64,000 nt of DNA. It comes from Polyangiaceae bacterium (lineage in GTDB: Bacteria > Myxococcota_A > Polyangia > Polyangiales > Polyangiaceae). The notes below the pieces were generated by a model. That model made no database searches. It had not been told where the DNA came from and saw only the letters and a list, made by a program, of their open reading frames with translations. The stretch lies in NCBI GenBank assembly GCA_020846005.1, contig JADLEQ010000085.1, positions 62,001-126,000 of the forward strand. Direction: 5' to 3'. Positions 55,084 to 59,758 of this stretch are shown in pieces; positions within the stretch are counted from its first letter, which is position 1, and every line of letters begins with the position of its first letter. The translations under genes and the position numbers were made by a program.

Positions 55084-56823
55084 TCAGCCCGCGGCGGCCG
55101 CGCTCGAATCGGTGGGGGCAGCGTGCGGAGCGTGCGGCTCGGGCGCGTTGGCCAGCCACGCCTTGAGGCGCGCCACGCTGAAGGGGCGCGAGTAGGCGTA
55201 GAGGATGAGCCCGCTGAAGAGCAGGAACAGCCAGGAGATGCCGGTGAACTGGTCGTCGACCCAGTAGTACGACTTGTACAGCACGTAGCTGGCGCCGCTG
55301 ACGACGAGGGCGACTGCGCCGAAGCCTGGGCGCACCACCATCAGCGCGGGCGCGATGATGTACATCGAGTAGTAGTAACAGGTCAGGTTCGTGAGGCTCA
55401 TCACGAGGGGCAAGCTCAGGCAGAGGCCGATCCAGAGGTGCTTCGTCCGGCGGAGGGCCCACGCAGTCCACAGGCCCACGAACGCCACGATCGCGAGGAA
55501 GAGCGGCTTGATCCTCTTGAAGCGCTCGTTCCGTCCTTCCTTCCAGGGCTTGAACGGGTCGTCGAGGTTGTCGTCCCGGGTGAACCGCATCCGACCCTTC
55601 TCGGTGTGGACGAGGTTCGTCTCGAGGCCCATCTGGTTCGTGAGCGGCGTCCGGGCGTGCGTCACCAGCGTGTGCTGGATGAACTCCTTGTAAGAGCCCG
55701 ACCCCCCGGTCGCCAGCATGCTGGCGGGGACGAGTACCGCGAGCGCGACCGCGGCGCCGGCGATGAGACGCTTGTGGTCCGGGTGGAACGCGCGCTCCTT
55801 GAACAGGTGGAAGAGCACCATGATCCCCCAGCCCGCGAACAGGATCGCCGGGAACACCCGGAGGAGCGCCGACCAGGTCAGCGCCGCGCCGGCCAAGGCG
55901 AGCCGGCGCTTCTTCGCCAGGCAGAGCGCCGCCACGACGAAGAAGAACCAGTCCTGGCGCATGAACGCGCCGCCCGTCCAATAGAAGTTCGCCGGGGCGT
56001 TGCACCCCCACCACACCGTGCACACCGCGCCGACACGCCAGCCGAAGGCCCAGTAGAGCAGCACCACGATGCCGACGTGCAGCGCGATGTCGATGAGGCT
56101 CAGCGCCTTGAAGAAGCCGTCATCCGCCGTGCCGAAGCTGCCGAAGAACTTCCCCGCCATCGTCCAGACCGGCGGCGGGTTGTAGCCGTGGTCCTTCTGC
56201 ATGTTCTCCCAGTAGGACCCGGCGCTCGACCGGTAGAACCAGTCGACCTCGCGCTTCCACTCCTCCCAGCGTGGCTCCCCGCCGCTCTTCAGGAAGATAC
56301 CCTTGCACTCGCTGATGTACTGCGCGATCTGCGGGTCGGTGTTCTTCTTGATGAGGTTCTCGCGCAGATCGCGCAGCTCGCGCCGCTGCACCACGCCAGC
56401 GCGCCCGAGCTCCATCTCCGCGGCGGCCGCGCACTCGTAGAGCCGGTTGTAACCGATCTCCTCGAAGTACTTCGAGCCCATGTAGTAGTGGAAGAACTCG
56501 TGGCGGTGGTAGTACTCGATGTACCGCGTGTTCGGGTTGAAGAAGTCGAAGTAGACGCCGAACGCGAGCCCGGTGAAGAGGATCGCCACCCAGCGACGCC
56601 ACTTGACCGACATCGAGATCCGGAGCCTGAGCGCGCGGGCCTCCAGCAGGAGCAAGATCGCGCCGCCGAAGGTGAGGAACAGGCGCAGGCCCGTCATCAG
56701 CGGATCGAAGGTGTCCTTCTGAAAGTAGGCGGCCTCCCAGTGCTGGGCGAGCCACGTCGGCTGGCCAGGGGCGGCCGTGAGCCAGGCGAGCAGATCGACG
56801 AAGGAAGACGCGAGGGCGCTCAT
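55084..56823 (-). CDS. Polytopic membrane protein, glycosyltransferase-like (GT87/DUF2029 style)
   Basis: 579 residues with about ten membrane helices. A soluble region (~110-240) in the first half includes 'YFDFFNPNTRYIEYYHRHE', 'YYMGSKYFEEIGYNRLYEC' and 'WFYRSSAGSYWENMQKDHGY', then 'WWGCNAPANFYWTGGAFMRQ' between helices. The layout resembles polyprenyl-phosphate-sugar-dependent mannosyltransferases of the GT87 kind, whose catalytic Asp lies in an early outside loop; the family assignment is tentative. ATG 56823 is 9 nt from TAGCCT, so the mRNA is probably leaderless. It is divergent from the radical SAM gene with only 83 bp between starts. Confidence 0.72.
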   Translation of the reverse strand: MSALASSFVDLLAWLTAAPGQPTWLAQHWEAAYFQKDTFDPLMTGLRLFLTFGGAILLLLEARALRLRISMSVKWRRWVAILFTGLAFGVYFDFFNPNTRYIEYYHRHEFFHYYMGSKYFEEIGYNRLYECAAAAEMELGRAGVVQRRELRDLRENLIKKNTDPQIAQYISECKGIFLKSGGEPRWEEWKREVDWFYRSSAGSYWENMQKDHGYNPPPVWTMAGKFFGSFGTADDGFFKALSLIDIALHVGIVVLLYWAFGWRVGAVCTVWWGCNAPANFYWTGGAFMRQDWFFFVVAALCLAKKRRLALAGAALTWSALLRVFPAILFAGWGIMVLFHLFKERAFHPDHKRLIAGAAVALAVLVPASMLATGGSGSYKEFIQHTLVTHARTPLTNQMGLETNLVHTEKGRMRFTRDDNLDDPFKPWKEGRNERFKRIKPLFLAIVAFVGLWTAWALRRTKHLWIGLCLSLPLVMSLTNLTCYYYSMYIIAPALMVVRPGFGAVALVVSGASYVLYKSYYWVDDQFTGISWLFLLFSGLILYAYSRPFSVARLKAWLANAPEPHAPHAAPTDSSAAAAG

Positions 56824-56906: not shown

Positions 56907-58151
56907 GTGACGACCACGCCGCGCTCTCGCCGCCTGGAGGTGCTCCGCGAGTGTAAGCCGTTGTTCGTGGTCTGGGAGATCACGCTCCGCTGCGATCAAC
57001 AGTGCCGCTTCTGCGGGACGAGGGCGGGGAAGGGTCACCCCGCCGAGCTCGACACCCAGGAGGCGCTCGATGTCGTCCGCCAGCTCGCGGAGCTGGGCAC
57101 GGCCGAGGTCGCCATCCACGGCGGCGAGGCGTACCTGCGCGGGGACTGGCTCGAGATCGTGCGCGCGATCCGCGCCGCGGGCATGGACTGCACGATGGTG
57201 ACCGGCGGGCGCGGGTTCGACGAGTCGCTGGCGCGAGGGGCGCGCGAGGCGGGGATCACCGCCGTCAGTGTCTCGGTCGACGGTCTCGAGGCGACGCACG
57301 ACGCGCTCCGGGGGCTGCGCGGCAGTCACCGCGGCGCGCTCCGCGCCCTCACGCTCCTGCGGGAACAGGGCGTGCCCGTCGGCTCCAATACGCAGATCAA
57401 CCGGCGCAACCAGGCCGAGCTCGTCGAGCTCATCGAGCTGCTCGCACCGTACGGCATCTACGGGTGGCAGGTGCAGCTCATGGTGCCGATGGGGCGCGCG
57501 GCGGAGGCCGAGGATCTCTGGCTCCAGCCCTACGACCTCCTCGAGATTTTCCCGCGCATCGCCGAGGCCCGGCGCCGCGCGGACGCCCACGGGATCAAGC
57601 TCTGGCCCGGGAACAACGTCGGCTACTTCGGGCCGTACGAGCACCTGCTCCGCGCCGATCGCTCCCGCTTCGGTTACTCGAGCGGGTGCGGGGGCGGGAT
57701 CCGCACGATGGGCATCGAGGCGAACGGCGACATCAAGGGCTGCTCGGCCATGGCCTCCACCGGGTTCGTCGGCGGCAACGTGCGCGAGCGATCCATCCGA
57801 GACATCTGGGAGAACACGCCGGAGCTGCAGTTCACGCGCGGGTTCGTGATCGACGATCTCTGGGGGTACTGCCGGAGCTGCTACTACGGGGCGATCTGCA
57901 AGGGGGGGTGCATCTGGACCTCCTCGACGCTCCTCGGCCGCACGGGCGACAACCCCTACTGCCATCACCGCGCGCTCGAGCGGCTCGCGGAGGGCAAGCG
58001 CGAGCGGCTCGAGTTGATCGAGCCGGCGCGCGGGCTCGTGCGCGACACGGCACGCTTCGCCCTGCGCCTCGAGGACGCACCGGAGGAGTGGCTCGCGCTA
58101 GCTCGGGCCGCGCACCTGGGCGAGCCCCTCGCCGCGTCGCGCGAGGCGTGA
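56907..58151 (+). CDS. Radical SAM/SPASM maturase, AYGPPP-lipoprotein associated
   Basis: 414 residues from GTG 56907. The [4Fe-4S]-SAM motif is Cys29-x3-Cys33-x2-Cys36 in 'LRCDQQCRFCGTRAG'; 'AEVAIHGGEAYLRGDW' is the GGE motif. The C-terminal third is a SPASM-type domain with several cysteines: 'SSGCGGGIRTMGIEANGDI', 'KGCSAMAS', 'YCRSCYYGAICKGGC' and 'NPYCHH'. Such enzymes mostly modify ribosomal peptides or proteins. Convergent, 26 bp away, are two small lipoproteins sharing a motif, AYGPPP, which are plausible substrates. No protease or transporter is present, so export would use the general lipoprotein pathway. The substrate link is an inference. Confidence 0.9.
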   Translation: MTTTPRSRRLEVLRECKPLFVVWEITLRCDQQCRFCGTRAGKGHPAELDTQEALDVVRQLAELGTAEVAIHGGEAYLRGDWLEIVRAIRAAGMDCTMVTGGRGFDESLARGAREAGITAVSVSVDGLEATHDALRGLRGSHRGALRALTLLREQGVPVGSNTQINRRNQAELVELIELLAPYGIYGWQVQLMVPMGRAAEAEDLWLQPYDLLEIFPRIAEARRRADAHGIKLWPGNNVGYFGPYEHLLRADRSRFGYSSGCGGGIRTMGIEANGDIKGCSAMASTGFVGGNVRERSIRDIWENTPELQFTRGFVIDDLWGYCRSCYYGAICKGGCIWTSSTLLGRTGDNPYCHHRALERLAEGKRERLELIEPARGLVRDTARFALRLEDAPEEWLALARAAHLGEPLAASREA

Positions 58152-58156
58152 CCGCG

Positions 58157-58175
58157 GGCGACGGGCCCGGTCGCC
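58157..58175. terminator. Hairpin between the maturase and lipoprotein A genes
   Basis: GGCGAC (58157-58162), a 7-nt loop, then GTCGCC (58170-58175). It lies between the convergent stop codons. Confidence 0.4.
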
Positions 58176-58177
58176 GC

Positions 58178-58642
58178 TCAGCCGCCGCCCGAGCCGCCCG
58201 AGGGTGGGGGCCCGTACGCAGGCGCGGCGCCGCCCTGGCCGCCGGCGCTCTGCCCGGCCGCGCCGCCCTGGCCCCCCGCCGCCTGCCCGGCCGCGCCCCC
58301 CATCGGAGGCGGACCGTACGCGGCGACCATCCCGCCCTGCCCGGCCGTACCTCCCATCGGAGGCGGACCGTACGCCGGAGCGATCCCGCCCATGCCCCCG
58401 CTCCCTTGCCCGCCGGCCCCCCCCGCCGAGCCGTCCGTGCCGCTGTCGCCGGTCACGTTGCCGCCCGTCTTGCCGTCGTCGGTGTCGCCGCCGCAGCCCG
58501 TGAGGGTCAGGCCCATGCCGAACAGGATCGCCGCGGTCAGGCCGCGCGCCGCGCTCGGCGTCGGGCGCCTGCAGAACGGGCACTCGCGCTCCGAGGCGAG
58601 GTGATGGCGGTGACAGTGCTCGCAGACGATCAGCTCTTGCAT
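58178..58642 (-). CDS. Zinc-ribbon/AYGPPP lipoprotein A
   Basis: 154 residues from ATG 58642, with an AGGAGAG ribosome site. Residues 1-30 form a treble-cysteine zinc ribbon: Cys7-x2-Cys10, His13, Cys21-x2-Cys24 ('CEHCHRHH', 'ERECPFCRR'). A hydrophobic segment follows, ending in a lipobox (LTGC, Cys50). The exported part is Gly/Ala/Gln-rich and holds three copies of AYGPPP (90-95, 108-113, 142-147), each followed by a Met/Ser-Gly-Gly. A zinc ribbon before a lipobox is odd: on signal cleavage it would stay in or be removed from the cytoplasmic side. It may be a leader recognised by the adjacent radical SAM enzyme. Substrate role is inferred. Confidence 0.75.
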   Translation of the reverse strand: MQELIVCEHCHRHHLASERECPFCRRPTPSAARGLTAAILFGMGLTLTGCGGDTDDGKTGGNVTGDSGTDGSAGGAGGQGSGGMGGIAPAYGPPPMGGTAGQGGMVAAYGPPPMGGAAGQAAGGQGGAAGQSAGGQGGAAPAYGPPPSGGSGGG

Positions 58643-58791
58643 GGCGCGCGTCTCTCCTGCGCAGAGATCGTGACCCGCGCCGGCGGCGCGCGACTTGATC
58701 GAGCGCAAGTCGCACCGGCGCAGACCGGCGCCTCGGCGCGAGCGCGAGTGGTCGGGCAGGGCCCCCCCCGCGCGGCCTGCGGTGGGGCCGG

Positions 58792-59172
58792 CTACTTCGG
58801 CGGGGGGCCGTACGCGGCGACCGGGCCACCGCCGCCGCCGTTGGGATCCCCAGGCTCGGTCTCGCTCGGCGCCGTCTCGCCCGGCTCCTTCGCCGCGGGA
58901 TCGCCCTCGCCGGGCTCATCTGCGCCGGGGGACGGCTGCTCGGTGGGCTCCACCGGAGGCCCGCCGTAGAGCGCGACGGCGCCGCCGCCCGCCTCGGGCC
59001 CGGGGCCGCCCGCGCCACCGCCGCAGGCCGACACGGCGAGCCCGACCGCGAGCGTGGTCGCGACGAGCGCGCTGGTCACGACGTGGCGCCCGGAGCGCGC
59101 GCAGAAGGGGCAGTGGGCCTCGGTCGCGTGGACGTGCCGTCGGCAGGTGGGGCAGGGGACGAGCGTGGTCAT
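58792..59172 (-). CDS. Zinc-ribbon/AYGPPP lipoprotein B
   Basis: 126 residues. Same plan as lipoprotein A with identical spacing: Cys7, Cys10, Cys21, Cys24 ('CPTCRRHVH', 'EAHCPFCAR') and lipobox Cys50 (AVSAC). The exported part is Gly/Pro/Glu-rich, has an LYGGPP stretch (68-73), and ends exactly in AYGPPPK (120-126). ATG 59172 gives the register match; an ATG at 59190 adds six residues. It precedes lipoprotein A on the same strand by ~150 bp. Its length and acidity differ from A, so only the N-terminal plan and the motif are conserved, which supports functional constraint. Confidence 0.72.
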   Translation of the reverse strand: MTTLVPCPTCRRHVHATEAHCPFCARSGRHVVTSALVATTLAVGLAVSACGGGAGGPGPEAGGGAVALYGGPPVEPTEQPSPGADEPGEGDPAAKEPGETAPSETEPGDPNGGGGGPVAAYGPPPK

Positions 59173-59206: not shown

Positions 59207-59758
59207 TCAGCGGGCGTCGCCGTCCCCGGGAGCGCGCACCCGGGTCGCCGAGAGCGCGAAGCCGAGCGCGCACGGGAGCCGCTCGAAGCCGCCGTCGGCG
59301 CCGACCAGGGCGCTGCAGTCCGATCCCGGGACCGAGGCGTACTCGTAGCGGAGCTCGCCGGCGAACGAGGGCACGTCCAGCGCGGCGCCGTCGAGCCGCC
59401 CGGCCGCGCGGTCCCGCCGGATGACCCCGCACCCCGGCTGGTCGCGCTCCGGCTCGAGGACGCCGACGCGGGTCTCCGACACGATCTCGAACGCGCCGTC
59501 GGCGCCGACGGTCCCCTCGATCGGCGCCTCGCCGTTCAGCCAGTAGAGCGACGAGGCGTCGCGCGAGAGCCGCACCTCGAACCGCCAGACGGCCGGCGCT
59601 CCCAGCGCGCCCGCGCCGCAGGTGCCCGGGTCGAGCGTCCCCACGACGGCGTACGTCCCGAGCTCCTCGCCCGGCAGCCGCGCGTCGCCTGGCTCCGACG
59701 GGAACCAGCACCCGGTCGCGAGGGCGGCGAGCGCCGTGGCCAGGGCGGTCCGGGTCAC
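59207..59758 (-). CDS. Hypothetical lipoprotein, 183 residues
   Basis: GTG start. The signal ends LATGC (Cys17). The exported domain is beta-rich with four further cysteines ('DPGTCGAGALG', 'QPGCGVIRRD', 'GSDCSALVG', 'LPCALG'), likely two disulfides. No family recognised. It lies 34 bp upstream of lipoprotein B on the same strand, so it may belong to the same transcript as lipoproteins B and A, which would make it a third component. It carries no AYGPPP motif or zinc ribbon. Confidence 0.68.
   Translation of the reverse strand: MTRTALATALAALATGCWFPSEPGDARLPGEELGTYAVVGTLDPGTCGAGALGAPAVWRFEVRLSRDASSLYWLNGEAPIEGTVGADGAFEIVSETRVGVLEPERDQPGCGVIRRDRAAGRLDGAALDVPSFAGELRYEYASVPGSDCSALVGADGGFERLPCALGFALSATRVRAPGDGDAR

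Follow-up and report, generated by a model that had tools for sequence, protein, structure and literature searches.

The window analysed here, a 64,000 nt stretch of contig JADLEQ010000085.1 from a Polyangiaceae bacterium (assembly GCA_020846005.1, positions 62,001 to 126,000 of the forward strand), contains a gene for a SPASM-type radical S-adenosylmethionine (rSAM) enzyme at 56907-58151 (+), which is convergent with two minus-strand genes for small lipoproteins, A and B, with 26 bp between the stop codons of the rSAM and lipoprotein A genes. As judged from sequence comparison, this locus is probably a splicease-type protein-modification cassette with lipoprotein substrates, and the enzyme very probably acts on the XYGxP motifs (any residue, Tyr-Gly, any residue, Pro) of these lipoproteins. 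The convergent arrangement had been described in an earlier note on this DNA and was confirmed by open reading frames (ORFs), Pfam domains and coordinates, and the maturase proposed there to act on AYGPPP lipoproteins is well supported.

Lipoprotein A has the order MQELIVCEHCHRHHLASERECPFC...LTGC...PAYGPPPM...AAYGPPPM...PAYGPPPS, and lipoprotein B the order MTTLVPCPTCRRHVHATEAHCPFC...VSAC...ALYGGPPV...AAYGPPPK. The three AYGPPP motifs previously placed in the exported region of A were found there, and the terminal AAYGPPPK of B, previously taken for the only site of that protein, is accompanied by ALYGGPPV at Tyr69, which had been overlooked. Every tyrosine of A (three) and B (two) falls inside an XYG site. 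The cysteines are at identical positions in both proteins (7, 10, 21, 24 and 50), with the first four forming a CxxC...CPFC knuckle ahead of the signal sequence, which the earlier note did not report, and Cys50 belonging to the lipobox. The starts of A (58642) and B (59172) are supported by the upstream AGGAGA and AGGA sequences, respectively, and by the family alignment. Pattern and protein searches found exactly two such leaders (those of A and B) and one such enzyme in the genome containing the window, and neither leader nor enzyme in a second genome of the same genus.

Small proteins of the same plan are encoded beside most homologues of the enzyme in other genomes. We collected these lipoproteins across genomes by the leader pattern alone, so that conservation of the leader holds by construction, and that of the other features does not. 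The family plan consists of CxxC-x-RH-x5-9-CPFC in about the first 25 residues (also written CxxCxRH-x7-CPFC at the level of the family), a hydrophobic stretch, a lipobox, a disordered tether and 1-5 copies of XYGxP. A lipobox behind a hydrophobic run was present in 144 of the 153 complete members, with its Cys near residue 60, and this Cys (Cys50 of A and B) was invariant in the alignment, although it was not a selection criterion. Tyr followed by Gly, Ala or Ser was found in the exported part of all 153 complete proteins (YG in 144/153), and behind the leader of 168/168 leader proteins once other classes were included. The sequence YG.P occurs 257 times in the 153 complete proteins, compared to a mean of 7.3 and a maximum of 15 in shuffled sequences, and chance or plain low complexity was therefore rejected as the origin of the motif. 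The site consensus is [P/A]-[L/A/P/M/R/V...]-Y-G-[A/G/L/P]-P-P, in which Tyr is constant, X is free (L, A, P, M, R, V, D, I and C were seen) and the Pro residues vary. Apart from XYGxP, which leader genes distant from any enzyme gene also keep, nothing in the exported region is strongly conserved. The literal form AYGPPP, proposed earlier as the motif, is real but used by one subclade only, with LYGAPP, MYGMPA, PYGIPP, CYGVPP and others found elsewhere. Neither the Pro residues nor Gly, which is replaced by Ala or Ser in some proteins, are constant, and a reaction at Tyr which fuses the preceding residue is therefore far more likely than one at Gly or Pro, the other two targets that had been put forward.

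The leader lipoproteins are an undescribed family, as neither Pfam nor NCBIfam has a model for them, and A and B did not match any NCBIfam leader of the Nif11 or nitrile-hydratase type. A match of the leader to the RING-type zinc finger zf-C3HC4_3 (E 0.001, below cut-off) was rejected. Visual inspection revealed two leader variants that lack the RH pair (CGVCLNFTQPGEHRCPFC in L055, and CPCCDGFVPPGASACPHC in L168, the latter with LMACYGMPP), and as these escape the pattern, the number of systems given here is a minimum. Some leader proteins (L163-L167) run on into large Cys-rich domains behind a SFYAGPED or AFYAGCPP site, and on the basis of these sites such large folded lipoproteins may also be modified.

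Genome-wide counts from pattern and protein searches were obtained for 318 genomes of the class, read as Polyangia because almost all loci with a name belong to Myxococcota, with an enzyme threshold of E <= 1e-60 and an exact DNA pattern for the leader. The enzyme was found in 204 and at least one leader in 129 of these genomes, and the reversed leader pattern, which served as control, matched nowhere in the 318 genomes. The enzyme was present in 128 of the 129 leader-positive genomes, with the sole exception being 73 percent complete, and a leader was detected in 128/204 enzyme-bearing versus 1/114 enzyme-free genomes (Fisher p 3e-33). Because genomes are not independent, we also counted by genus, a level at which some dependence persists: each of the 68 genera with a leader also has the enzyme, another 33 have the enzyme without a leader, and 51 lack both (p 3e-18). 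In the rest of the phylum, the enzyme was found at E < 1e-100 in 13/14 leader-positive versus 5/35 leader-negative genomes (p 4e-7). Up to 24 leader matches were present in one genome (G139). A leader lipoprotein lies within 4.5 kb of 90 of the 122 enzyme genes (a number that includes non-family reference enzymes), and the order is convergent in 10/10 pairs of the window's subclade, with enzyme and lipoproteins on one strand in other subclades. The pairing of enzyme and lipoprotein is thus real, recurrent and statistically strong, with parts that co-occur and are absent together, and it withstood the check suggested in the earlier note, a search for enzyme homologues lacking AYGPPP proteins and for AYGPPP proteins lacking the enzyme, once the motif is widened to XYGxP.

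The enzyme contains the radical SAM domain PF04055 (81.9 bits) and the SPASM domain PF13186 (32.4 bits). The best NCBIfam model was TIGR04103 (nif11-class peptide radical SAM maturase 3; 434.8 bits, cut-off 725), followed by TIGR03913 (GDL motif peptide-associated maturase; 386.5 bits, cut-off 591.75), and the next model scored 149 bits, approximately 240 bits under these two; with scores under both curated cut-offs, the enzyme lies close to both families without strictly belonging to either. In a maximum-likelihood tree of 65 enzymes, it was placed in a 13-member subclade (support 100/99), which together with other Polyangia enzymes, a Nostoc TIGR04103 enzyme (853 bits, above the cut-off), the GDL enzymes and a Tropicibacter enzyme forms one clade (98/97). 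This clade excludes a TIGR04133 enzyme from Bacteroidales, one enzyme from Agathobacter and further SPASM-like enzymes encoded in the same genome; the exact positions of these outgroups are unsure because several of their branches are very long. The InterPro entry of PlpX, the rSAM enzyme of the Pleurocapsa splicease PlpXY, is IPR026482, which we take to correspond to TIGR04103, and the window enzyme is a relative within this TIGR04103/IPR026482 clade, not an equivalog. The AlphaFold2 model of the enzyme (predicted local distance difference test score, pLDDT, of 84) has a SPASM maturase fold, with PqqE, SkfB, SuiB and anSME as the nearest solved structures, and an N-terminal extra domain of the size of an RRE (recognition element of ribosomally synthesised and post-translationally modified peptides, RiPPs) was not found in the predicted fold.

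The sequence X-Tyr-Gly is the hallmark of spliceases that excise tyramine (PMC10533398, PMC11002830), and their reaction leads to the loss of 135.0757 Da per site (PMC10533398). PlpX has been assigned to IPR026482, the natural sites of PlpXY are MYG and LYG, and a splice tag derived from PlpA2 has the sequence GPIRPLYGLPI (PMC10533398); PlpX works with the RRE protein PlpY (PMC11002830). The Nostoc TIGR04103 enzyme adjoins a Nif11 precursor ending in GGRGSIALYGLPPELF (ALYGLPPELF), and is followed by a 71-residue gene without family match, at the place where a plpY-like partner is expected. The Nostoc precursor and the PlpA2 tag indicate that known members of the clade share the P/A-X-Y-G-x-P arrangement with A and B. 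The resemblance to PlpXY consists of the same SPASM clade, X-Tyr-Gly with Pro two residues on (RPLYGLPI, ALYGLPP) and multi-site substrates. In contrast, the substrates proposed here are lipoproteins with a zinc-knuckle leader, the removal of which is predicted to be by LspA, whereas PlpXY precursors have Nif11 or nitrile-hydratase-type leaders. The earlier statement that no described system has this substrate does not hold, as X-Tyr-Gly is the splicease signature and the enzyme lies inside the splicease clade; the chemistry is probably already known, and the new parts are the leader, the export route and the scale. From clade and motif together, tyramine excision is the likely reaction of the enzyme.

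Several observations weigh against this assignment. The enzyme scores well below the cut-offs of both equivalog models, no small additional gene adjoins it in the window, and no PlpY-like RRE gene, as used by PlpXY, was seen near the locus (an observation confined to the neighbouring genes, without use of an RRE model). YA or YS replaces YG in 9/153 leader proteins (for example AIYSAAI and SFYAGPED). No leader was found in 37/165 genomes with a good homologue, with a wider-spacing pattern included, from which it follows that some clade members use other substrates, and some homologues of 59-66 percent identity have no nearby substrate gene, with most such genomes having leaders elsewhere.

One alternative bears on novelty alone and leaves the splicease mechanism untouched: chemistry and substrate class may already be described among the predicted systems of a 2022 splicease survey, which we regard as possible but somewhat doubtful. 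A PlpX-based genome survey would probably catch Polyangia homologues of 45-55 percent identity, and its title reportedly names peptides and proteins. As summarised in PMC10533398, this survey (Scott et al. 2022, Chem 8:2659) comprises 27 characterised and 939 predicted systems, and the leader lipoproteins may be listed among them; against this, the lipoprotein family is represented in neither Pfam nor NCBIfam, and among the open-access papers searched, none that mentions spliceotides appeared to connect them to lipoproteins or myxobacteria.

It is unlikely that the enzyme acts on XYGxP by a different reaction, such as epimerisation, a crosslink of the Tyr ring or oxidation of X or Tyr, as would be the case if the chemistry of the clade has diversified while the docking motif was kept. 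SPASM enzymes are chemically diverse, the TIGR04103 cut-off was missed by 290 bits, and the lack of a PlpY-like gene among the neighbours as well as the substrates with Gly-to-Ala and Gly-to-Ser changes would fit such a reaction. However, the invariant Tyr and varied X suit a reaction on Tyr and the backbone rather than one needing a particular X side chain, and to our knowledge tyramine excision is the only SPASM chemistry described to date that uses an X-Tyr-Gly site. That AYGPPP is a repeat with a structural or binding role in exported lipoproteins and is left unmodified, with the target of the enzyme elsewhere in the cell, is very improbable, since despite the low complexity of A and B and the abundance of Gly/Pro-rich repeats in myxobacterial lipoproteins, leader and enzyme are jointly present or absent over 318 genomes and 68 genera and physically adjacent, the motif recurs in the unrelated protein context of the Nif11 precursor beside the Nostoc enzyme, and Tyr-Gly, Tyr-Ala or Tyr-Met is found close to the N-terminus of GDL peptides encoded next to related enzymes.

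The GDL system (TIGR03913/DUF1843) resembles the cassette proposed here in its related enzymes, in Tyr-Gly or Tyr-Ala near the peptide N-terminus and in a similar knuckle, which in GDL is fused to the enzyme. Its substrates differ in being small, cytosolic-looking peptides without lipobox or knuckle, and membership of this system was rejected on the TIGR03913 score given above, together with the finding that no DUF1843-like ORF was seen at the locus and no knuckle in the window enzyme. DUF1843/GDL peptides lie beside TIGR03913-type enzymes at three loci (L143, L145, L071) and have a Tyr followed by Gly, Ala or Met close to the N-terminus (PLYAV, KPYGV, MLYGG, RPMYMA); their sequences suggest that DUF1843 peptides are splicease substrates as well. 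The C-terminal knuckle of GDL enzymes (CRGCNQYIWPHETDCPHC, CRDCNQHVYEGTEICPHC or CRSCDQYVWPHETDCPHC) resembles the lipoprotein leader, as does the knuckle CPDCGRHVLLRDQVEDTRCPFC with which the Tropicibacter enzyme starts. A knuckle in cis was found in 4/4 related enzymes outside lipoprotein systems, a small sample, versus 0/90 enzymes with leader lipoproteins. The AlphaFold2 model of lipoprotein A, which is informative for the knuckle only, has a pLDDT of approximately 95 for the first 20 residues and low values for the remainder. By analogy with RREs, which occur fused or separate, the knuckle may be a docking module that is movable between enzyme and substrate.

Two other systems combine peptide modification with lipoproteins. 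The Bacteroidales TIGR04133/TIGR04134 system also has a SPASM enzyme beside a lipoprotein with Tyr-Gly-x-Pro just past the lipobox (ACDSDGPGNELCEYGTPSADY), and was considered for this pairing, but its enzyme is approximately 27 percent identical and outside the clade, and its lipoprotein is free of a knuckle and has a folded domain. Membership was rejected on the tree and on score (147.7 of 425 bits for the enzyme), and A and B had no TIGR04134 match. This Bacteroidales pair, annotated as 'hypothetical equivalog' (enzyme at L147:4935-6011 (+), lipoprotein at L147:6026-6511 (+)), has LCEYGTPSADY just past the lipobox, and TIGR04133/TIGR04134 may represent a further splicease-like system. In DybA, modification of a RiPP by a multinuclear non-haem iron-dependent oxidative (MNIO) enzyme is followed by lipidation (PMC12636315). 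This DybA/DybH hybrid shares with our proposal a cytosolic peptide modification, followed by export, lipidation and cleavage by the lipoprotein pathway, and differs in enzyme superfamily and chemistry, in its C-terminal recognition motif and in the absence of a knuckle leader (PMC12636315). The lipobox Cys behind a hydrophobic signal, which defines such RiPP-lipoprotein hybrids, is present in both A and B, with lipidation predicted.

We propose that A and B are made as pro-lipoproteins in the cytosol, where their first 24 residues would fold as a zinc knuckle, dock on the rSAM enzyme and serve as RiPP leader. Splicing, which we infer from sequence, would convert the Ala sites to alpha-keto-beta-homoalanine and the Leu site of B to the Leu equivalent. 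The modified chains would then be exported, lipidated at Cys50 by Lgt and cleaved by LspA, and as this cut would take knuckle and signal together, the ordinary lipoprotein signal peptidase may double as leader remover. The mature product would be lipid-anchored at the cell envelope, with a disordered Gly-rich tether and two or three ketoamide electrophiles. As known spliceotide products inhibit proteases (PMC11117315, PMC10373908), covalent inhibition or capture of proteases would be the likeliest use, although this is the weakest step, and protease inhibition is put forward as a tentative function only.

In 17 cases, from other Myxococcota classes and a few Polyangia, the lipobox Cys itself is the X of a site (LAACYGVPPD, VLAACYGTPGG), and splicing there would add a backbone ketone to the lipid-bearing residue. 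YG directly behind the lipobox Cys (LAACYG) was also seen in several Myxococcota outside the class (L208-L223), where the anchor and the proposed splice site coincide. It is conceivable, with somewhat less than even confidence, that the whole lipoprotein branch in the Myxococcota, with its up to 24 leader matches per genome, is backbone-spliced before export, with the knuckle on the substrate here and fused to the enzyme in GDL relatives, and that the Cys-YG classes yield lipidated alpha-keto-beta-homocysteine.

The coordinates of the features are listed in Table 1. A third small lipoprotein-like ORF with an ATGC lipobox, at 59207-59758 (-), adjoins B; it has no knuckle, no YG.P site and no Pfam or NCBIfam family match, and does not appear to belong to the cassette. 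Upstream of the enzyme gene, a multi-spanning membrane protein of 579 aa is encoded at 55084-56823 (-), with no Pfam match at E <= 1.

Table 1. Features of the putative splicease-type locus (positions in the window)
Feature	Position	Strand	Details
Radical SAM/SPASM maturase, splicease-like	56907..58151	+	414 aa; GTG start at 56907, start uncertain
Lipoprotein A, proposed substrate	58178..58642	-	154 aa; ATG at 58642 behind AGGAGA; three AYGPPP sites
Zinc-knuckle leader of A, CEHCHRHHLASERECPFC	58571..58624	-	Pattern search; one of only two genome-wide
Lipobox of A, LTGC (Cys50) behind hydrophobic stretch	58493..58504	-	Sequence; family alignment
Site 1 of A, PAYGPPP (Tyr91); full PAYGPPPM	58358..58378	-	Sequence
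Site 2 of A, AAYGPPP (Tyr109); full AAYGPPPM	58304..58324	-	Sequence
Site 3 of A, PAYGPPP (Tyr143); full PAYGPPPS	58202..58222	-	Sequence
Lipoprotein B, proposed substrate	58792..59172	-	126 aa; ATG at 59172 behind AGGA; two sites
Zinc-knuckle leader of B, CPTCRRHVHATEAHCPFC	59101..59154	-	Pattern search
Lipobox of B, VSAC (Cys50)	59023..59034	-	Sequence; family alignment
Site 1 of B, ALYGGPP (Tyr69); full ALYGGPPV	58954..58974	-	Sequence
Site 2 of B, AAYGPPPK (Tyr121), extreme C-terminus	58795..58818	-	Sequence

The splicease reading suggests a possible function for these short lipoproteins, a family not described before, and the swap of the knuckle between enzyme and substrate makes recognition in the splicease clade directly testable. 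If it is true, protein engineering and tetrazine labelling would gain natural multi-site full-protein substrates, a leader that removes itself and many orthologous enzyme-substrate pairs. Ketoamide-forming backbone splicing would then be a routine equipping of envelope lipoproteins in a large bacterial group, not a rare trick of secondary metabolism, and bacteria would carry chemically reactive, spliced surface proteins, with the pairing of enzyme and lipoprotein present in well over a hundred related genomes.

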